From Toxonevra muliebris (Eukaryota > Arthropoda > Insecta > Diptera > Pallopteridae), in assembly GCA_963691655.1 (NCBI GenBank), contig OY829328.1, forward strand, positions 9,824,204-9,888,203: a stretch of DNA of 64,000 nucleotides. Direction: 5' to 3'. The translations under genes were made by a program, and so were the position numbers. Each line of letters starts with the position of its first letter. Position 1 is the first letter of the stretch. The notes beneath the pieces were generated by a model. That model did not search any database and was not told the origin of the DNA. It was given only the letters and a program-made list of their open reading frames with translations. Shown one piece after another: positions 17,105-63,949 of this stretch.

Positions 17105-18530
17105 AAAAAATCATATGTAAATATAGAATGTATGTAGAATGGCTACTCCTTCTAACAGAGGGTGCACAATTAGTGCTAGTTTTCCAATTTCGAGTTCGGA
17201 GATCTTGGTTATGCCGTCTAGAAAAGGTTCTTGGAATAATTTTAGTCTGGTTCTGGCAAGAGCCGGGCAATGGCAGAGAAAGTGGATTATAATCTCTATT
17301 TCTTCAAAGTTGTTGCAGCTTCTGAAGTGTGTGTTAGGTAGGATGTGGAATCTGACCGCATGGTCACCTATTACCCAATGCTCCGTCAGTACTGCAGTCA
17401 GTTTGGCTATATTGGATTGCATGTGACAAAGAAAGTCCCTGTTTCTGCTATGGTTGAATTTTGCCCAAGTGTTTTTAGTTACGATGCACGTGGAAAGGCT
17501 TTTCCATTTGCTATTTGTAATCAGTCTTGATTTTATTCAAGGGAATTGCTACAGATTGCGCCTGAGTTAAATCCAGAACACAACCTCGGCTCGCTAATTC
17601 ATTGGCCTTTTCATTGTCTTCGATGTTCTTGTGATCAGGAATCCAAATAAGGCCAATGCCCAGCCTATAACTTAGGGTGGCGAGTAACTCCCTGCATTGG
17701 TTAACTAATCTAGAGGATATTGTGTCTGAACCTAGAGCCTTAATTGCCGCTTGGCTGTCTGTGAAGATAGTTACTTTAGCCTTGCTTTGAATTTTGGCCA
17801 GTGTTTTGTAGGCTTCTCTGATCGCCAGAAGTTTGGCTTGGAAAACACTGGCTTCAGTCGGGAGATCTGTTCCTCTTTGCCCTTTCTGTGTTTGTATGTT
17901 TGGTGGCTTGAATTTTCGTGTATACTTCTACCACCTTCTGGTACTTTTTATTGTCCTCGATGTTCGCTTAAGTGCTGTACCGGCCGTTTCATTTTGCGCA
18001 ATTCAGGTATCGTGACTTGAGTTGGGCATCTATAGATTTTTTTTTTTTTGACGGCCTGCGATTACTATGGCTGATGACCGAGGCCGCTTTAGAAGTTAAT
18101 GGTTTCGATATTTCTATGATAGGGTTGCTTTGGCTGGCACTGCCTATCGTAGTGGTCACTGTTTTCTGGCTTGAGGACAGCAGATTTTTTTCTCCGCGCA
18201 AGAAAGGGCCTTCCCAAGTACCTCCACTCCTTTCGCAGGGGTGCTTGGATTGGCTATAACATTATCCAGAATTTTTTCTTTTTTATTCATTTCATCTGAT
18301 TCTTACGATCGCTTCGGTGGGCCGAAGCCAAGCTCGGCAATCAATGAGGCTTAAGGGAAAATATAAGATCAACCACGGCAACGCTCCATGCCGTGGTAAG
18401 GCAACCGTTACTCTTCGATGCGGCCCGGTGTCGGAAAGGCACCTTGCAAATATAGCCAGTCTTACCGCATAGCTGTAAACTTAGTCCATGGGCACGGTCC
18501 GTATGACACCCTGGATTGTAGGGAATTTGT
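17105..18530 (-). pseudogene. Internally deleted LINE (5' UTR, ORF1 start, RNase H, C-terminal domain)
   Basis: Read from 18530 downward, a GC-richer leader precedes an ORF1-like start near 18290 (MNKKEKILDNVIANPST). ORF1 breaks off around 18000 and is followed directly by an RNase H domain. The latter shows the core TIFTDSQAAIKALGS at about 17745-17790 and a degenerate HKNIEDNEKANELASRG in place of the usual GNE.AD..A. A final domain containing HWVIGDHAVRFHILPNT and HFLCHCPALARTRLKLF follows (17422-17111). The endonuclease and RT are absent, and frameshifts and stops are frequent. FQAK replaces FQAE and ANELA replaces ADELA, so RNase H catalytic acids are lost. It is a dead I/R1/LOA-like copy. 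Confidence 0.8.
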
Positions 18531-30077: not shown

Positions 30078-30590
30078 TTATAGTTCTCCTATGAGTTTAT
30101 TTCCTTTGAGGAAATTTAATATCTCTTTAGGAGAACAATCCGCAATGTCTTGCGGTTGTAGGATAGAGTTTCCCAAGTAACGAAGTCGGGTCCTCATTAG
30201 ACCTTCACAGTGGCATAAAATATGTTCTACTGTTTCTTCCTTCTCGTCACATATTCGGCACGTATCGTCTTGTGCTAGACCCAAGTTCGATAGGTGTTTT
30301 TTGACCCTACAGTGCCCTGTATAGAATCCTGTGGCAATTCGGATTTGGTTCCTGCCTAAATTAAGCAGTTGTTTAGTTCTGCGTTGACAGATCTTTGGCA
30401 TGAATGATTTAGCTTGTCTGTTACCGGGGGTTTCCCTCCAGTATTGTAGCGAATTACTGTCCTGCCAATTTTTTAAACTGATTTAACGGAACTCCATGGT
30501 AGACCGCAGAATGGTCGTGGTCCAGTGAATTCACTGGATGATCCTTTCTTTGCAAGTTTGTCCGCCATTTCAGCCATCAAGATTCTCATC
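30078..30590 (-). pseudogene. LINE 3' fragment: RNase H end and Cys/His C-terminal domain
   Basis: Minus-strand translation begins with ADKLAKKGSSSEFTGPRPFC (end of an RNase H domain), then a frame break near 30480. A clean frame then contains QLLNLGRNQIRIATGFYTGH, CRVKKHLSNLGL, CRICDEKEETVEHILCHC and TRLRYLG. The CRxC...HxxxHC array and TGHC-K-HL phrase are characteristic of LINE ORF2 C termini. No RT remains. Confidence 0.8.
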
Positions 30591-32736: not shown

Positions 32737-33490
32737 TCACCTTGATCAAAAAGTTCCCGGAATTTATTCAGAAAATTAAAAATACAAGTTTATTCATCTA
32801 AATCTATATTGTCTCCTTCAAAGTAATCCCCATCGACTGCAACACACTTATGCCAGCGCTTGATCCAATCCTCGAAACATTTTTTATATACGGTTTTCGG
32901 TATGTCCATGTATGTCCACGGTGCGTTATCATGGTGCAAAACCCACGAGTTTTCCGTCCACAATTCTGGTCTCTTTCGGCGAATTGCTTCACGCAAACAC
33001 CTCATAACGCCCAAATAATACTCTCTGATGGTTAATTTGTGGTTATTGACCAAAATTTCTTTTACTTTATCAACGTTTTCGTCGGTTTTCGATGACGATG
33101 ATCTGCCACTGCATTCCTCATCTTCGATTGACTCACGACCACTTTTGAACCGCTCGTGCCACTGGTAAACGACCGTTTTCTTTAGAGAATCGTTGCCGAA
33201 ACACTTTTCCAACATTCGCACACTAATAAATCCGTTTTTTACGCAAAATTTAATACAATACAATTTAATAAAATTGTAAAAAATCGCCAACACACTCAGA
33301 GATAGATGGATAGATAGAAGATGTTCTCTTGGCTACGTGACTTTTGCAAATGTCAAGCTATGACGCTTTGATTTAGAGGGAATATCAACAACAGATGTAC
33401 CAACTTAACAAAAAAAACAAAACAGAACTCAAATCGGAACTATGGGAGCGCCACACGGTGGTCATTCCGGGAACTTTTTGATCAAGGTGG
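32737..33490 (-). mobile_element. Mariner (DD34D family) element, copy 1, internally deleted
   Basis: Inverted termini YCACCTTGATCAAAAAGTTC lie at both ends with TA directly outside (32735-32736 and 33491-33492). At 754 bp it is well short of a full ~1.3-kb mariner. The plus strand carries the transposase in reverse, so the gene reads on the minus strand. Confidence 0.92.
32790..33293 (-). pseudogene. Mariner transposase remnant with open 167-codon frame
   Basis: Residues ~20-100 match a mariner N-terminal helix-turn-helix region (LEKCFGNDSLKKTVVYQWHE, then RSSSSKTDENVDKVKEIL). A deletion then joins KLTIRE to YYLGVMRCLREAIRRKRPEL, removing the first catalytic Asp. HDNAP with the second Asp survives at about residue 125. 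A second deletion removes the third Asp and joins directly to TYMDIPKTVYKKCFEDWIKR near the C terminus (GDYFEGDNI). The frame stays open through both deletions. It cannot transpose, but could still make a DNA-binding fragment if expressed. Confidence 0.88.
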
Positions 33491-36153: not shown

Positions 36154-36577
36154 TCCATTTTTGTGATATAGAACGAAAACCGAGAAAAAAAAACGATTTT
36201 CAACGTATTTTACTAATAAAAAGCAAAACAAAAAATATTAATTTTTAAATAATGTATAACAGGCTTAAGGAACTGTATATGTAGTTATCACAACAACAGT
36301 GTATAGAGAGACGGGCAAATCAGACGGCCGTTTCAGAATCCGCCACGATTCCTCATCAGTGATCTTAGTGATAACTAGTTCTTAATCTTTTAATATCCTA
36401 TACAAGCTATTAATATTTGAAATCACAACCTAGAATTACAGAAATAAAGTAGTCAAAACTTTGAAAATTAACGACTAGATTTAATTTTCAGTATTTTACC
36501 AAAAAAATATTAATTTTTTTGGTAAAATACGTTGAAAATCGTTTTTTCTCGATTTTCGTTATATATCACAAAAATGG
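36154..36577. mobile_element. Inverted-repeat element enclosing a hammerhead repeat
   Basis: Arms 36154-36213 and 36521-36577 are imperfect reverse complements (CCATTTTTGTGATATA, AACGAAAA, CGATTTTCAACGTATTTTAC). A perfect 17-bp hairpin sits at 36491-36530. The centre contains the repeat at 36250-36385 that carries the minus-strand hammerhead motif. Confidence 0.7.
36317..36365 (-). ncRNA. Hammerhead ribozyme motif (type I, minimal), copy B
   Basis: On the minus strand the order is: stem I strand AGATCA (36365-36360), core CTGATGA (36359-36353), and stem II GGAAT/AGAAT-type pairing (minus: GGAAT then ATTCT, 5 pairs with one G-U) closing loop CGTGGCGG. Then comes GAAA (36334-36331), a self-complementary CGGCCG, TC, and stem I partner TGATTT (36322-36317). 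All invariant core bases are present. Predicted self-cleavage falls after the C opposite 36323. A perfect 10-bp outer helix (36282-36291 with 36368-36377) encloses the motif. Stem III is only 2-4 bp, as in the minimal hammerheads of animal retroelements, which are thought to act best as dimers. Confidence 0.75.
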
Positions 36578-36675: not shown

Positions 36676-36965
36676 TTAAAAGTTATCAGATAAGTCAATC
36701 TTGCTGATTAATCTCAGTCGATGCGGCTTCAATGCTATGATGTTCCTACTTTCTGGGTAATATTGCCCCAAGTATCTTTTCGTCCTGCAATTGAGCGTCT
36801 CGCAGTGTATTAGACTATGTTCTGATGTTTTCTTGTCGTTTCGGCAAAACCTACAATTGTTATCCTGATTTATAGTTAAGTTATTCATGTATTCTCTCAG
36901 TTTACATTGTTCTGAGAGAATGCCCATGATCTGACTAAGTTGGTCTCTTCTTAGCTTGAGACTGC
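36676..36965 (-). pseudogene. LINE ORF2 C-terminal fragment
   Basis: Minus-strand frame: SLKLRRDQLSQIMGILSEQC, KLREYMNNL, NNCRFCRNDKKTSEHSLIHC and KRYLGQYYPE. The CRFC...EH...HC array is the LINE ORF2 terminal Cys/His motif. This fragment differs from the one at 30.1 kb, so a separate family or old divergence is likely. Confidence 0.7.
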
Positions 36966-37025
36966 GTGTATATAGGACGCATAGCGTAGAGCAGAAAATT
37001 CAGTCAAAGTAATCGACTTCATCTG

Positions 37026-44151: not shown

Positions 44152-44953
44152 CCACCTTGATCAAAAAGTTCCCGGAATAACCACCGTGTGGCGCTGCCAT
44201 CGTTCCGATTTGAGTTCATTTGCAAAAGTTACGTAGCCAAGAGTACATCTATCTCTGTGTGTGTTGGCGATTTTTTACAATTTTATTAAACTTTATTGTA
44301 TTAAATTTAACGTAAAAAATGGATTTAATAGTGCGCGAACGTTGGAAATGTTGGAAAAGTGTTTCGGAAACGATTGTCTAAAAAAAACCGTCGTTTACCA
44401 GTGGCACGAGCGGTTCAAAGAGGTCGTGAGTCAATCGAAGATGATGAACGCAGTGGCAGACCATCGTCTTCGAAAACCGACGAAAACATTGATAAAGTAA
44501 AAGAAATTTCGGTCAATAATCGCAAATTAATTCGCCGAAAGAGACCAGAATTTTGGACAGAAAACTCGTGGATTTTGCACCATGATAACGCACCGTCGTA
44601 CAGTGCCATCATTATTTGTAATTTTTTGACGAAAAATGCAACAAATACCATCCAACAGCCACCGAATTCACCTGATTTGATTCCCTGTGACTTTTTTCTC
44701 TTCAATCGAGTTAAAAAACCATTACGGGGAACGCGTTTCAGCAGCCAAAAAGAAGTAATGGAAAAATCGCAGGAAGCACTGATGGACATACCGAAAACCG
44801 TATATAAAAAATGTTTCGAGGATTGGATCAAGCGCTGGCATAAGTGTGTTGCAGTCGATGGGGATTATTTTGAAGGAGATAATATAGATTTAGATGAATA
44901 AACTTGTATTTTTAATTTTCTGAATAAATTCCGGGAACTTTTTGTTCAAGGTG
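44152..44953 (+). mobile_element. Mariner (DD34D family) element, copy 2, internally deleted
   Basis: Same family as 32737-33490 but in the opposite orientation, with CCACCTTGATCAAAAAGTTC at the left and its inverse at the right. TA flanks both ends (44150-44151 and 44954-44955). Length is 802 bp. Confidence 0.92.
44261..44901 (+). pseudogene. Mariner transposase pseudogene
   Basis: The N-terminal region (FNVKNGFNSARTLEMLEKCF, VYQWHERF) is in one frame, with a frameshift near 44418 into RGRESIEDDERSGRPSSSKT. A deletion joins VNNRKL to IRRKRPEFWTENSW and removes the first catalytic Asp. The second (HDNAPS) and third (SPDLIPCDFFLF) Asp remain with 34 residues between them, which identifies DD34D mariner. 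The C terminus KRWHKCVAVDGDYFEGDNI matches copy 1. The two copies have different deletions, so neither derives from the other in its present form. Confidence 0.88.
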
Positions 44954-51825: not shown

Positions 51826-53855
51826 ATGGGCAAGGATGCTAGGCTGACATATTCTGAACAGCAAATAATCAGAATTTTGAGAGACGCGAATTATTCCAAC
51901 AGGCAAATTGCGAACAAAATAGGCAGAAGTGAGGGAGTAATACGAAATTTTTTTGAAAAAAGGCAAAAAATATGGCGCCAAAATTCCAAATGAAGCTTAC
52001 ATTGCGCCATAAAGGACAAATCCGTTACGAACGAACCCAAAATCTGTTATCTGCTCGGCAAATCAGAGAAAAGTTCGATCTTCCCGTCACTGCCCGACAT
52101 AGTACGAGTTTTAAATGCAAAAACTCAACAAAACTAAACGGAAAACCACACCGAAAAAAATATAGGGAGTTAATACAACATTTTCTGTGAATTAATATAA
52201 CTTTTGCGGAGTTAATATTACTTTAACGCAAACAACACCGAAAAGAGTTGTTTGAAGTTTCTTTGAGTCGATTCAACTCTTTTTGTGGTTATAATAACTT
52301 TTTGTCAGTGTCAGAATGAGTCTGAAGGCAATTTCAAATTAACTCTGCAGTTTCAACCAATATGTGTTCGATTAACTCTGAAAATGGTTAATATAACCAT
52401 GGAAAAGGTAAATCAATCAACTTTTTTCTGAGTAAATATAACTCATTTCCAAAGGTTCTATATAAATCTACTATTAACTCTGAACAGAGTCAACTGTACT
52501 CCAAAACAGAGTTTCATATAATTCAACTTTCCCAAAATGTAAGATTAACTCTGAACGGGAATATTTTCATTGCAAATTCTGTAGTTAATTGTTAAAGAAG
52601 TGTGTGATTTATATTAACTTTTAAATCCTGTCGAATTTGGTGTGAATAATTGTGAATCTTTTGTAATTCTATAATATGGACGATGTGAACTCTCAATTCT
52701 GAAGTGAACCATTTTTTATCAGAGTTGAACGAAGGTTTTGTACTAGCTGAATCTGAAAGCGGTAGTTCATTTGCTATATTTTTATTCATTTATTTTTGTT
52801 AATACTAAAATATCTGTGAATATCATATATTTATCTAATAAATTAATAAAAAACTAATAAAAACATAAAAAATTAACTTTATTTTAATTTTGGTTCAAGA
52901 ATTTTAAATTGTTCATCGAACTATTTTAAGGGTTGAGACAATATTCTCTCCTTTCAATGTTGGGTGATGAATTTCACGTGGTTTAATGTACTCTTTTGAA
53001 GGTTGAGGTAACATTTTGCGGAGTTGATTCAACTCTTAGTCGGAGTTCAACTAACTCTTTTTACATTTAGTTCAAGAATTTCAAGTGGTTAATTAAACTC
53101 TTTTAAGGGTTGAATTAACATTTTACGGAGTTGTTATAACTTTTTTATTATCAGCTACTTCAAGAATTTATATTCTTAACATAACTCCTTACCGGAGTTA
53201 ATATGACTCCTTAAAAGTATACCTCACTCTTCGGAGTTGAATATACTCCGCAGTTTTTTGAGTTCACGCTTTGCTGATGCTCATAAGACCATTGGAGCTC
53301 ATAAGCGATTGGATTTTACTCGCAGATACATGCCCTGGCTTGAAGAATAGCGAAATGCTATTTTTTCAGATGAAAAACGTTTAATATAGAGAGCCGGACT
53401 GCTACAGTTGTTTTTGGCATGATTTGAACAAACACTGCGTAGTATGTTCAAAATGCTATTTCGGTGGAGGAACAGTAATGGTTTGGGGAGCCTTTTCGTA
53501 CTTTGGAGCGACACAAATTTGCTCCATCACAACTAAAATGAACTTCGAAACCTACAAGGAGTTATTAGAAGATGTATTGGTGTCTTATTATGAAAAGGAG
53601 CCTGAGATAGAGTTCATTTTCAAACAAGATAATAGGTCCCTGCATATTTCAAGGCAATCGAGAGAGTGGTTTTCCTCAAAAAACATCAAGTTACTGCAAT
53701 GTCCTGCATGTTGTCCACACTGTAAGCCTGTGGAGATCGTTTGGGGTATACTTGCTTGCAAAGTGTACTCAACGGGGAAACAGTACAGCAGCGTGATTGA
53801 ACTCAAAAACGCGATTCGTCAATCTTGGGGTGAAATCGGGTCAGAAATCCTATAA
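51826..53855 (+). pseudogene. Tc1-like DD34E transposase, disrupted
   Basis: The start ATG at 51826 opens MGKDARLTYSEQQIIRILRD, then RQIANKIGRSEGVIRNFF, the first helix-turn-helix of Tc1 transposases. A frameshift follows near 51980, then LLSARQIREKFDLPVTARH (second HTH). The gene is split by a 1.1-kb insert and resumes near 53260 with RRYMPWLEE and IFSDEKR (first catalytic Asp). It continues with GGGTVMVWGAFSYFG, FIFKQDNRSLH (second Asp) and KPVEIVWG (Glu), with 34 residues between the last two. All three catalytic positions are still readable, though SPDLNP has become CPHCKP and stops are present. Confidence 0.87.
52165..53255. mobile_element. Palindrome-rich insert inside the Tc1 transposase gene
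   Basis: About 1.1 kb of AT-rich sequence separates the second HTH from the catalytic domain. It is filled with variants of GGAGTTAATATAACT and of the near-palindrome GAGTTGATTCAACTC (for example 52265-52279 and 53021-53035) in both orientations. Motif density is highest near the two ends, as in foldback elements. Exact borders and a target duplication are not clear. Confidence 0.65.
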
Positions 53856-60329: not shown

Positions 60330-61096
60330 AAGGGTTTTCCATTAGGAACATAAAAATTTTATATCTTTATATGAACGCACTTTTAAAATTTTTTAAATGA
60401 ACTCTCAATGTCAAAAGGTTAGTTAAAGTTAACATTTTCATCATGGTTAAGTTCAAGAACCAGCAACGTTTGGAAATTATTAAAAATTACTAGTGAAATT
60501 CTGAGTCGATGGCCGCCACTTTAAGAGCGCTTACTCTAATTTTCGGTCGTAATACCGTCATGTTACCGTCAATGGAGAGCGCTATCGTGTTATGTTGGAA
60601 GATTATTTATGGCCAGAATTGGATGAACTTAACATCAACGATATGTGGTTTCAACAAGACGGTGCCACTAGCCACACAGCACGCATCACAATCGATTTAT
60701 TGAAAGGTAATTTCGGTGAACATGTTATCTCGAGAAATGGTCCGGTGGAATGGCCGCCTCGTTCATGTGATTTAAAGCCTTTGAATTTCTTTTTATGGGG
60801 CTATATCAAGTCACTGGTTTATGCCAACAAGCCAGCAACTTTAGACGAGCTCAAAGGCAAAGAAAAAGATATCAAACGCGAAATTGCCAACGTTCCGGTC
60901 GAAATTTATGCGAGAGTGGTGGAAAATTGGGTCTCAAGAATCGATTGCTGTAAACGGGCTCGTGGTGGTCATATGACCAAATTCGAATTTCATTTGTAAA
61001 ATTTAATGCTTGCACAATAAATTTGAACTCAATATTTCAAAAAATTCTATGTTTTATTAATAGATAAAATTGTTATGTCCTTAATGGAAAACCCTT
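60330..61096 (+). mobile_element. Mariner-related DD41D transposon, internally deleted
   Basis: Inverted ends AAGGGTTTTCCATTA lie at both termini, with TA directly outside (60328-60329 and 61097-61098). Total length is 767 bp. It carries a shortened transposase gene on the plus strand. Confidence 0.9.
60444..60999 (+). pseudogene. DD41D-type transposase pseudogene
   Basis: It opens with MVKFKNQQRLEIIKNY then a stop, then SMAATLRALTLIFGRN. A deletion joins this to VNGERYRVMLEDYLWPELDE. The intact C-terminal frame contains MWFQQDGATSHTA (second Asp), WPPRSCDLKPLNFFLWGYIK and a GGHMTKFEFHL end. The third catalytic position, usually Asp in the LTPLDFF block, is Asn here, 41 residues after the second Asp. 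The first Asp is missing with the deletion. The deletion joint carries the direct repeat TACCGTCA twice (about 60550-60575). Confidence 0.85.
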
Positions 61097-61098
61097 TA

Positions 61099-63110
61099 CA
61101 AATACACAAAGTGGAAAAAGTGCAGGAACGCGTTTATCAAAGTGAAATAAAACTATTTCAGTATTCATACCTACTTACCTACCTATCTATATATATATGT
61201 TTTTTATAAAGTTATAAATGAATATGAAGATGATATATGCAAAAATATATATGTGTGTAAGTATAAGTACCATAAATTGAATGCAACACAGCAGCAGTAA
61301 AAATGCTCTGGGGTATCAAAGACTCTAAATAACATAACATAATCATTATGGATGAAAAAGGAACATAATATTATGATTAAAAAAAAAAAAAACAAAAATA
61401 AAAATAAATAACTATATAAAGTAAAGTATAAATCTGTTATAAAGATAGGGGCGAAGCTTATTGCTGTGTGTTCCAAAAAGAGTAAAAACGAAATAAGGCA
61501 CTTTATGCATAATGCCACTAACTACAAGCAAGGAAAACTCATTAGCAGAAAACGCATTCATATTTATATTTAGTACTTATATACTACATATACAAACAAA
61601 CACACATACTTGTGCTTAAGTGTAATAAAAAAAAAAAAAACAAATATTAAAATGAAAATAATACACGAAATGTGTGAAACTATGAATGAGTTGAATGAGT
61701 GTGTATGTGTGAGAGTAGTTCTTGTTATTAATTTCAAAAAACGAAAAGTGAAAATACATAAATAAATTACCAACTTAAACTGATACATACCGTTGAAGTT
61801 GTAGTGGTGTACTTGTGTTTGTGTGTGCGAAATTTGTTATGCAATTTCACACAAAATAAAAAAAATATATGTATAAAAAAGACACAGAAGTAGCAACAGC
61901 TAAAGAACTCGAGCAGTTGTACTCTGTAAAAAAAAAAAAAATAATAATAATAAGCAAAAAAAAAAAAAAGGAATCGCTTTAGTGTCATAGTTACTATCAT
62001 GCTAGTAGTGAGAAAAAGTACGTAGCTGCATCCTTCATTTATACGTTCATGTATTCACTTATTCATGCATGCATTCATTCATTTATTTAAACACTTATTC
62101 ATTCATTCAATCATTCATAAATTCATACATGTTATAGCGTATAACAGACACACACATACTCGTACATACAATGAAGAGCCACCCATGCTCATTTCCGTGT
62201 TACAATATGCGAGGCCATGAATGGCGTTCTCAATTTCCTGTTTTTTTTTATGTATCTGTGTTTGCGACTCTATCTGTGTAATTGTGTGCGTTTCGCTAGT
62301 TTCATATTATAAAAGTTTTACTCCCAAGAATGAAAAAATCCTAACCATAGAAAGTAATAAGGCTAAAAAAGTAGAAATAGTCGTAAGGTAAGTGCAGCTA
62401 ATTCCGTGCTAGTGGGTAATTCCGTGCTATTTTACTAAAAGAAGTAAATTAAGAAATCTCGCATACTTTCCAACAATATTTTTTTTTGAGGTTGTTTACT
62501 ATACTTAAAACATTATGTACCTGTATTTCTACTTCTTAAATCTCGTTAGTTTTATAAAAATCTGCATTAGTTTATCATTTTACCAAAAATCCTTATAAAG
62601 TGCGCAAGTTTTATTGTATCGCGTAATGAAGCAGCATAATTTGGATAAGATTATTAAGAGTTATTTGTAAGTATAAATCCATTTTTATTTTACTAGTTTG
62701 ACCATATTTGATGTCTTCTTTCTATATCTGTGTATTTTCATTTAATTTGAAGCATAACAAAGCTAAAATCTGCATTTAGAAATGGCATGGAATTAGCTGC
62801 ATTTACTTTTGCACTTGAATCTATAACATTTAGATTTGTTATTCTCTTACTTATTTTGTTTAAAAGTTGTGAAGATGTTTATTCCGGTAAATAATATGAA
62901 CTATAAATATACTTGGGATCTAATTACGTCATATCAAATTAAGAACCATATTGTTATTTTTTAGTTGTAAAGTTGACAAAATTAGCAAAAATTAGATTTA
63001 AAATTATAGAATGTCTCCTTTCTAAATCACTTATATTTTGGAATTTTATTAAATTTACGGATATATTACTTCAGTATTTCAAAAAAAGTGGATAAGTAAA
63101 TGTATTTTCT
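61099..63110. other. Host-like noncoding DNA with simple repeats
   Basis: Poly-A and (AAT)n tracts (61379-61391 and 61930-61970) and an (ATTC)n-type array at about 62035-62130. The phrase TAATTCCGTGCTA at about 62399-62432 recurs at 63755-63815. No gene recognised. Confidence 0.45.
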
Positions 63111-63120
63111 TAGGAGACTG

Positions 63121-63445
63121 GACGACTGGTATGGACGACCTCGATAGCCTAGTGGATAGTGCACTAGACTTTCATCTGGGAGGTTCGGGTTCGATTCCCG
63201 TCTTCGTCTGGTGGTTAATTTTCATTACTTTCTTATATTCACTATCAATATGAAGTGTATGAGAATTATAAGATAGTGTACAAGTACACACATTGGTTGG
63301 TAATGGCAAAACCACCAAGCCGATAAAAAATTGCCACACCGCCGTTCGGAATCGGCGTTAAACTGTAGGTCCAACTATGTGGTATCACAATGGGCCGTTC
63401 AGGCCTAAGTGTGTCTCTCGACAGCCACTCCAACCTAACCTAACC
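63121..63445 (+). mobile_element. tRNA-derived SINE
   Basis: RNA polymerase III promoter boxes are present: box A TAGCCTAGTGG at 63145-63155 and box B GGTTCGATTCC at 63188-63198, in a 4-bp paired T-arm CGGG/CCCG. The base triplet at the anticodon position reads TTC, suggesting tRNA-Glu, but the anticodon and acceptor stems no longer pair well. A tRNA-unrelated body follows, ending in CCAACCTAACCTAACC. Likely target duplications TAGGAGACT (63111) and TAGGTGACT (63446) flank it. Its tail resembles the LINE end at 4304-4400. Confidence 0.85.
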
Positions 63446-63524
63446 TAGGTGACTATGAAAATTAAATCTAGAGGTTAATTTTCAAAGTCATGACTTAAGT
63501 TCATGTCAATTTCGTTATTTGAAG

Positions 63525-63657
63525 TTATATATAAACAGGCTTAAGATCACTGATGAGGAATTGTGGCGGATTCCGAAACGGCCGTCTGATTTGCCCGTCT
63601 CTATATACATTGTTGTTGTGATGACTACATTTGTTCATTAAGCCTGTTTATATATAA
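63525..63657 (+). mobile_element. 133-bp hairpin-ended repeat carrying a hammerhead
   Basis: Perfect 20-bp inverted ends (63525-63544 and 63638-63657) with TATATAAACAGGCTTAA enclose a sequence about 110 bp long that recurs in reverse orientation at about 36255-36370. No clear target duplication is visible. Confidence 0.82.
63544..63592 (+). ncRNA. Hammerhead ribozyme motif (type I, minimal), copy A
   Basis: Order on the plus strand: stem I strand AGATCA (63544-63549); core CTGATGA (63550-63556); stem II GGAAT (63557-63561), 8-nt loop TGTGGCGG, ATTCC (63570-63574), a perfect 5-bp helix. Then GAAA (63575-63578); CGGCCG with A-U closing as a 2-4 bp self-complementary stem III; TC (63585-63586); and stem I partner TGATTT (63587-63592), pairing 6 of 6 with one G-U. 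Every invariant core base is present. Cleavage is predicted after C63586. Copy B differs only in the stem II loop and a C-to-U that keeps pairing by wobble. Confidence 0.78.
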
Positions 63658-63949
63658 TTTTAAATGCATTTTCATTTAAATTTATTTTTCTAATTGGCTC
63701 TTGGAGTAGAATCACATAGGACGGAAATAGATTCACAATATATCCCAACTTTGGTAATTCCGTGCTATATGCCGTAATTAACAACCATAATTAGGTAATT
63801 ACGTGCTATTTTATTTCAACAGCGCCTATATCAAGTTTGCAAGCGGATAAAGAATAAATACACACAAAAGTGTTGTAAAATATGTTCATCATTTAGCCGA
63901 GATAGGTTTCCCAATAACTAAAGGACAGCTAGTAGGTTGTGTTGCTAAC
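63658..63949. other. Noncoding spacer
   Basis: AT-rich; contains repeats of the phrase GGTAATTCCGTGCTA also seen near 62.4 kb. Confidence 0.4.

Follow-up and report, generated by a model that had tools for sequence, protein, structure and literature searches.

A type I hammerhead retrozyme family in the fly Toxonevra muliebris and its probable mobilisation by Penelope-like elements

Animal genomes, those of insects included, harbour retrozymes with type I hammerhead ribozymes (Cervera and de la Pena 2020, PMC7229834). That study gives repeats of 150-450 bp and RNAs of about 170-400 nt, and its authors regard mobilisation of retrozymes by Penelope-like elements as a strong possibility. According to a 2024 review (PMC11722881), retrozymes may be moved by long interspersed nuclear elements (LINEs) or by Penelope-like elements. 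We analysed a stretch of 64,000 nucleotides from Toxonevra muliebris (assembly GCA_963691655.1, contig OY829328.1, positions 9,824,204 to 9,888,203 of the forward strand; hereafter the window), in which a hammerhead motif lies within a repeat whose unit, at 487 nt, is larger than the published sizes. The available parts of the 2020 paper (PMC7229834) describe neither the paired end sites nor the inverted arms and cleavage-point breaks that characterise this retrozyme.

Two further systems are close to the one described here. In Aedes aegypti, hammerheads occur in interspersed repeats with a palindromic stem and loop III, and dimers are thought to be needed, according to the available excerpts of Perreault et al. 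2011 (PMC3088659). By that description, the likeness lies in the interspersed repeats and the palindromic stem III. The PAc protein of an anole Penelope-like element cuts and extends both target strands, and its reverse transcription has two internal starts (Frangieh et al. 2024, PMC11167929). The T. muliebris retrozyme has AT-rich targets and tandem copies in common with PAc and, if it is moved by Penelope-type machinery, would also share two internal start sites downstream of the hammerhead and extension of both strands (PMC11167929). By our calculation from the published numbers, PAc reverse transcription starts 85-92 nt beyond its hammerhead cut; the corresponding distance in the retrozyme is about 80 nt. 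Unlike PAc, the unit described here has no reverse transcriptase (RT) or endonuclease and shows short homology between target and RNA.

The hammerhead motif and its 487-nt unit

A sequence-only reading of the window had pointed to a minimal hammerhead at 63544-63592, with cleavage at C63586. The parts, order and spacing that it described are present in the letters, and the cleavage nucleotide agrees in position with C17.

63544..63592, plus strand: minimal type I hammerhead motif, copy 1; predicted cleavage 3' of C63586
63578..63585, plus strand: ACGGCCGT, perfectly palindromic over its 8 nt; the monomer has a 2-bp stem III closed by a 4-nt loop, and two copies can pair in an 8-bp helix
36317..36365, minus strand: hammerhead motif of copy 2, belonging to a second subfamily; found by descriptor scan

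In copy 1 the 5' strand of stem I (AGATCA, 63544-63549) is followed by the core CTGATGA (63550-63556) and by stem II (GGAAT/ATTCC, 63557-63561/63570-63574), which encloses the 8-nt loop II, TGTGGCGG. GAA at 63575-63577 comes next; after the palindrome stand C17 (63586) and the 3' strand of stem I (TGATTT, 63587-63592; 6 bp including one G-U). The type I core, CUGANGA ... GAAA ... UH, is present in the right order with stems I and II. The very short stem III of dimer-type hammerheads, to which the sequence-only reading had drawn attention, is found in copy 1 as a tiny, palindromic stem. Lunse and colleagues reportedly described, in 2017, small Penelope-like hammerhead variants with a tiny stem III that probably act as dimers. 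The tiny stem III and the probable action as a dimer are the likeness to those variants.

A descriptor scan of the window gave two matches, copy 1 and a minus-strand motif at 36365-36317 (copy 2). The two hammerheads share 47 of 49 letters; one difference lies in loop II and the other is a C-to-U change in stem II that leaves a G-U pair. The Markov expectation for the descriptor is 0.017 matches per 128 kb, or 0.035 with order 2. Order-2 Markov sequence totalling 2892.8 Mb held 56 matches with 5 bp or more in each of stems I and II, corresponding to 0.0025 per window, and a stricter descriptor (stem I of at least 6 bp, short stem III) gave 3. A scan of viral contigs for the hammerhead gave no match. 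That the motif is a chance match devoid of catalytic meaning would agree with the lack of an Rfam match (see below). Against it stand the two copies in a window where 0.0025 is expected and the conservation of the core over the flanks; we rejected this explanation on the Markov-sequence expectation and give it almost no weight.

We searched the 491.4-Mb assembly (96 contigs) with both copies. First-look candidates numbered 608 for the copy 1 query and 2506 for the copy 2 query, and 40 were scored in each search. The repeat unit of 487 nt was found in tandem or singly. In three arrays (L012, L030 and L006) the period is 486-487 bp and the units match at 99-100%. We numbered the unit from the first base 3' of the cleavage point as position 1. 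Its GC content is 0.34; the one unit tested for coding capacity has no long reading frame, the longest open stretch being 52 codons, and there is no open reading frame with an RT and a GIY-YIG endonuclease in the unit. The family has at least two subfamilies, copy 2 belonging to the second.

The sequence-only reading had placed the motif in a small dispersed repeat, and the genome indeed holds a retrozyme-like family of tandem and dispersed repeats, a few hundred bp long, that bear a type I hammerhead. We file the repeat as an animal non-LTR retrozyme (LTR, long terminal repeat), a membership that is well supported. The hammerhead motif is real and conserved, and it lies in a retrozyme family. 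With tandem units running through the cleavage site, a circular RNA is plausible. The minus strands of the L012 array and of L032, from the second subfamily, also gave a weak SNORD24-like score (about 28 bits, where the gathering score is 41), probably by chance.

For the count of variant cells, 98 hammerhead-bearing stretches were reduced to 45 distinct sequences. The core varied in 6 of 450 cells (1.3%), to which at least one row truncated inside the hammerhead contributed, and C17 in none of 45. Variant cells made up 3/270 on the 3' side of stem I, 11/360 in the palindrome, 27/360 (7.5%) in loop II and 314/2430 (12.9%) in the 3' flank; the 5' flank value, 714/3915 (18.2%), is inflated by truncated copies. 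One divergent copy retains the palindrome in an altered form, ACGATCGT. Conservation of core bases above the flanks, by which the sequence-only reading could be judged, was found at 1.3% against 12.9% variant cells. Separately from this sample, position 17 is G in three unit copies (L074, L078 and L090), and cleavage is not expected there. C-to-T at this position is commoner than G among unit copies, and is tolerated in hammerheads.

Insertion anatomy and breaks at the cleavage point

Copy 1 corresponds to locus L001 (window position = L001 position + 61999) and copy 2 to locus L031 (window position = 38002 - L031 position). Their parts are as follows.

63542..63586, plus strand: part of the copy 1 direct segment that precedes the cleavage point, unit 443-487 (L001 map)
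63587..63665, plus strand: copy 1 direct segment, unit 1-79, stopping at the first of two 3' end sites (L001 map)
63446..63544, minus strand: copy 1 inverted 5' segment, unit 150-52 (L001 map)
63110..63119, minus strand: outermost letters of the copy 1 inverted segment, TTAGGAGACT, unit reverse complement, by eye
63097..63109, no strand: candidate left target-site duplication of copy 1, TAAATGTATTTTC; score reached by 31 of 1000 shuffles
63661..63673, no strand: candidate right target-site duplication of copy 1, TAAATGCATTTTC; overlaps the end of the direct segment
36258..36442, minus strand: copy 2 direct segment, aligning to unit 371-487 and 1-62 (L031 map)
36451..36510, plus strand: copy 2 inverted 5' segment, aligning to unit 159-101 (L031 map)
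36502..36518, no strand: candidate target-site duplication of copy 2, AAAAATTAATATTTTTT; score reached by 1 of 1000 shuffles
36230..36246, no strand: other copy of the 17-nt duplication of copy 2, same comparison

The letters TTAGGAGACT are separated from the rest of the copy 1 inverted segment by a later insertion resembling a short interspersed nuclear element (SINE). The inverted repeat around the copy 1 hammerhead arises because the inverted 5' segment is copied unit sequence.

End sites were examined in 52 of the 60 loci, with each array represented once. L011 was omitted as a stretch of the L012 array truncated at the end of its locus, and L032 and L034 are near-identical along their length. 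The right ends fall at two places: 27 of the 52 lie 75-89 nt and 21 lie 152-172 nt past the cleavage point, with 4 elsewhere (L009, L056, L057 and L058). An inverted 5' segment was counted in 13 loci (L001, L002, L003, L012, L015, L019, L024, L031, L033, L038, L039, L048 and L060), always with the inverted part on the left and the direct part on the right (13/13). Left out of this count were L007 and L027, which have further minus-strand pieces, and L051, L053 and L059, which have weak pieces over direct sequence. The outer ends of the inverted arms lie at 80-87 or 150-163 in 12 of the 13, L039 being the exception. Their inner ends are variable, frequently with short junction homology, and by eye fall exactly at unit position 1 in 3 of 13 (L012, L033 and L038). 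In 12 listed loci without an arm, the direct 5' ends are scattered from 70 to 436.

Most copies in the 60 mapped loci lack the inverted arm, and terminal inverted repeats are not found family-wide. These maps bear on the view that the hammerhead is part of a DNA transposon or a miniature inverted-repeat transposable element (MITE), to which the 28-nt inverted repeat flanking copy 1 and the position of copy 2 between inverted repeats could point. The copy 1 repeat is the copy's own inverted arm, the outer repeats of copy 2 belong to a separate fold-back MITE, and armless copies prevail. We rejected MITE membership on the inverted-repeat analysis and the locus maps and consider it extremely improbable; no MITE with a hammerhead is described in the available extracts of the literature on hammerheads and miniature inverted-repeat elements.

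Target-site duplications longer than 4 bp accompany the insertions. Among 17 insertions with both ends in view, 12 had a duplication scoring at least 10 with their own flanks, compared with 15 of 272 cross-pairings; at score 8, the numbers were 15/17 and 50/272. Duplications and target-RNA homologies of this kind are usual for LINE-type elements. The sizes of the duplications and the short target-RNA homologies are therefore compatible with mobilisation by a LINE-type element (L1, R1, Jockey), in which case copying would be target-primed and the inverted arms would arise by L1-style twin priming. Fragments of non-LTR elements with RNase H and zf-RVT also lie in the window. The ends, however, fall at two fixed internal sites and not at the tail, and 12 of 13 outer arm ends use the same sites, which is unexpected if second priming takes place internally at variable positions. 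Among the host's Penelope-like elements, the family termed B below has two ends, and there are pairs with their tails outward, in a comparison that covered Penelope-like elements and no host LINEs. We consider a LINE-type mover unlikely.

If cut RNA serves as the template, insertions are expected to start at unit position 1. We therefore collected all matches to an exact pattern with a non-C base before this position (40 matches, all fetched). Breaks made up 24 of the 40, of which 15 adjoin unrelated DNA and 9 adjoin another unit segment. A further 15 run on upstream as hammerhead sequence; 12 of these are more than 75% identical over 40 nt and three (L074, L077 and L088) partly so. The remaining match, L087, is a remnant. 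At control position 4, 10 of 25 matches were breaks, and at control position 22, which was added because position 4 is within reach of drop-off near the RNA 5' end, 6 of 23. The binomial p for the excess at position 1 is 0.024 against position 4 and 0.0014 against position 22. The excess would fit cleavage in vivo. We found no report of retrozyme breaks at the cleavage site in the literature, in which no search was aimed at that phrase.

Tandem arrays with units matching at 99-100% could also be plain satellite DNA that recombination or extrachromosomal DNA circles had spread, with the hammerhead as a passenger. This view does not account for single and partial copies, target duplications, fixed ends, inverted 5' arms and cleavage-point breaks, which together indicate insertion from RNA. 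We rejected a plain satellite on the target duplications and fixed end sites, and its probability is very low.

Penelope-like elements of the host and the proposed mechanism

The Pfam GIY-YIG model matched two places in the host genome, one SLX1-like by eye and the other in a Penelope-like element, so the RT of this element was used as the search query. This single query gave 148 matching places, with open frames of up to 866 aa, and the first Penelope-like locus has RT and GIY-YIG domains. By eye, three loci (L063, L064 and L065) carry hammerhead-like motifs in which CTGARGA is followed by one extra base, stem II and GAAA. The retrozyme differs in having the standard CTGATGA..GAAA with stem II directly after the core. 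Where neighbouring RT matches lie within 6 kb on opposite strands, all pairs (6/6) have their tails outward; 33 same-strand pairs were found besides.

Eight 3' ends of Penelope-like family B were fetched, of which six were informative (L073 failed to align, and L067 extended beyond its contig). By eye, these end at two distances past the inferred cut, about 72-77 nt (L066 and L072) and about 111 nt (L068-L071). The pattern for family B's own cut gave 9 matches, L069 among them, comprising by eye 4 breaks and 5 continuous sequences with an extra G. Two of the 4 breaks lie beside seemingly unrelated DNA and two beside inverted family-B sequence. In L164 and L165, inverted family-B sequence was seen to adjoin sequence that starts exactly at the inferred hammerhead cut of this family.

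A candidate for a recognition sequence shared by the retrozyme and its partner is the 8-mer AAGCCTGT, found at +54 in the unit and at +53 in family B. With position taken into account this is unusual, being matched by 81 of 5000 shuffles. In family A, AAGCCCG was read by eye at about +58.

The motif, the unit, the end sites, the arms, the target duplications, the excess of breaks at position 1 over the two controls and the Penelope-like elements of similar anatomy are direct observations. On anatomical grounds, Penelope-type machinery is the best candidate for the mover behind these end sites and arms. We propose, with fair confidence, that the repeat is a non-LTR retrozyme mobilised by a Penelope-like element through two-strand extension from two internal sites. 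As a non-autonomous retroelement it would be transcribed into tandem or circular RNAs of 487-nt units that are cut by the hammerhead, probably acting as a dimer joined through the palindromic stem III. A Penelope-like element of the same genome would supply endonuclease and RT. At an AT-rich target, both cut strands would be extended on the RNA, each extension starting at one or other of the two fixed positions within the unit, which lie downstream of the hammerhead cut at distances of about 80 and 160 nt. Copying would proceed upstream through at least one unit, or halt at the cleaved 5' end of the RNA. Extension of both strands would leave the left inverted arm and the short flanking direct repeats; an insertion with a left inverted arm has the same tail of the RNA pointing outward on either side.

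A more specific version is about evenly balanced in our judgement. The retrozyme would be a satellite that borrows the RT-start region of a Penelope-like element, primes symmetrically on two strands, and uses templates of which many 5' ends were cut by the hammerhead in vivo. If so, breakpoints in the genome record the activity of the ribozyme. Both the mover of the retrozyme and the role of the hammerhead in Penelope-type transposition are directly testable in this host, as its genome offers near-identical tandem units, long-frame Penelope-like elements with similar insertion anatomy and a possible breakpoint read-out.

Several results weigh against mobilisation by a Penelope-like element with an active hammerhead. 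The first concern the motif itself. A covariance search, a check named in the sequence-only reading, went against it: the Rfam models remained at background level, with no hammerhead across the whole window at gathering score and, at E<=10, no hammerhead in 63300-63900, in L012 (a tandem array) or in L032 (second subfamily). Rfam was likewise blank (E<=10) for three host Penelope-like loci that carry hammerhead-like motifs, and recognition by Rfam is a detection test, not a structural feature. The isolated 49-mer of copy 1 folds no better than shuffles (z -0.47), and its hammerhead fold, at -2.7 kcal/mol, is less stable than the minimum-free-energy fold at -11.2. The wider folding signal is inconsistent, with z -0.66 for copy 2 and z -4.74 for copy 1, the latter because of its inverted arm.

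Other points concern sampling and the comparison with Penelope-like elements. The loci used for conservation were picked by similarity to hammerhead-containing queries, which favours the hammerhead. Breaks are also fairly common at control position 4, only two control positions were used, and the test drops a random preceding A oftener than a C, which lowers the controls. For family B, the breaks are a pattern count without a control position. The descriptor scan finds no hammerhead in the fetched Penelope-like loci, where an extra base stands between core and stem II and the cut points derive from by-eye motifs. A blastn comparison of the unit with four Penelope-like loci gave no significant similarity (best E 0.077), and the unrestricted alignment for AAGCCTGT, reached by 467 of 2000 shuffles, is not significant, so that the 8-mer is modest evidence. 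By eye, several loci have short homologies between target and RNA at the end sites, unlike the published Penelope assay. In the PAc assay, hammerhead mutants still inserted, and the RNA-seq contained no reads beginning or ending at the hammerhead cut (PMC11167929).

Weighing the conservation and breakpoint data against the Rfam background score, we find the sequence-only reading supported. The 487-nt unit, the inverted 5' arm and the Penelope-like link go beyond it.

Surroundings of the two copies

The insertion target of copy 2 is a separate repeat, not part of the retrozyme.

36155..36577, no strand: fold-back MITE, insertion target of copy 2; inverted repeats at 36155-36221 and 36514-36577

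When the retrozyme insert is taken out, the MITE forms a near-perfect palindrome of 137 bp. The apparent covariation of the hairpin upstream of copy 2 with that of copy 1 was dropped, as both hairpins are inverted unit copies.

The SINE-like insertion in the copy 1 inverted arm (63120-63445) has a tRNA-like head at about 63137-63215 by eye and a AACCTAACCTAACCT tail; ARAGORN called no tRNA anywhere in the window. This piece splits the inverted arm, and we rejected it as a part of the element. The score of its own target duplication was matched by 450 of 1000 shuffles and is not significant alone.

Other repeats were also seen in the window. A possible second MITE at 62391-62803 consists, by eye, of AAGTGCAGCTAATTCCGTGC in two copies of opposite orientation, close to GGTAATTCCGTGCTA repeats. 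Debris of non-LTR retrotransposons lies at 17511-17927, 30078-30482 and 36679-36999 (minus), with RNase H and zf-RVT (the latter below the Pfam cut-off). Three stretches are mariner-like by eye, with no Pfam match at E 0.001 (32790-33332, minus strand; 44332-44901 and 60553-60999, plus strand), and a DDE_3 match lies at 53385-53855 on the plus strand.
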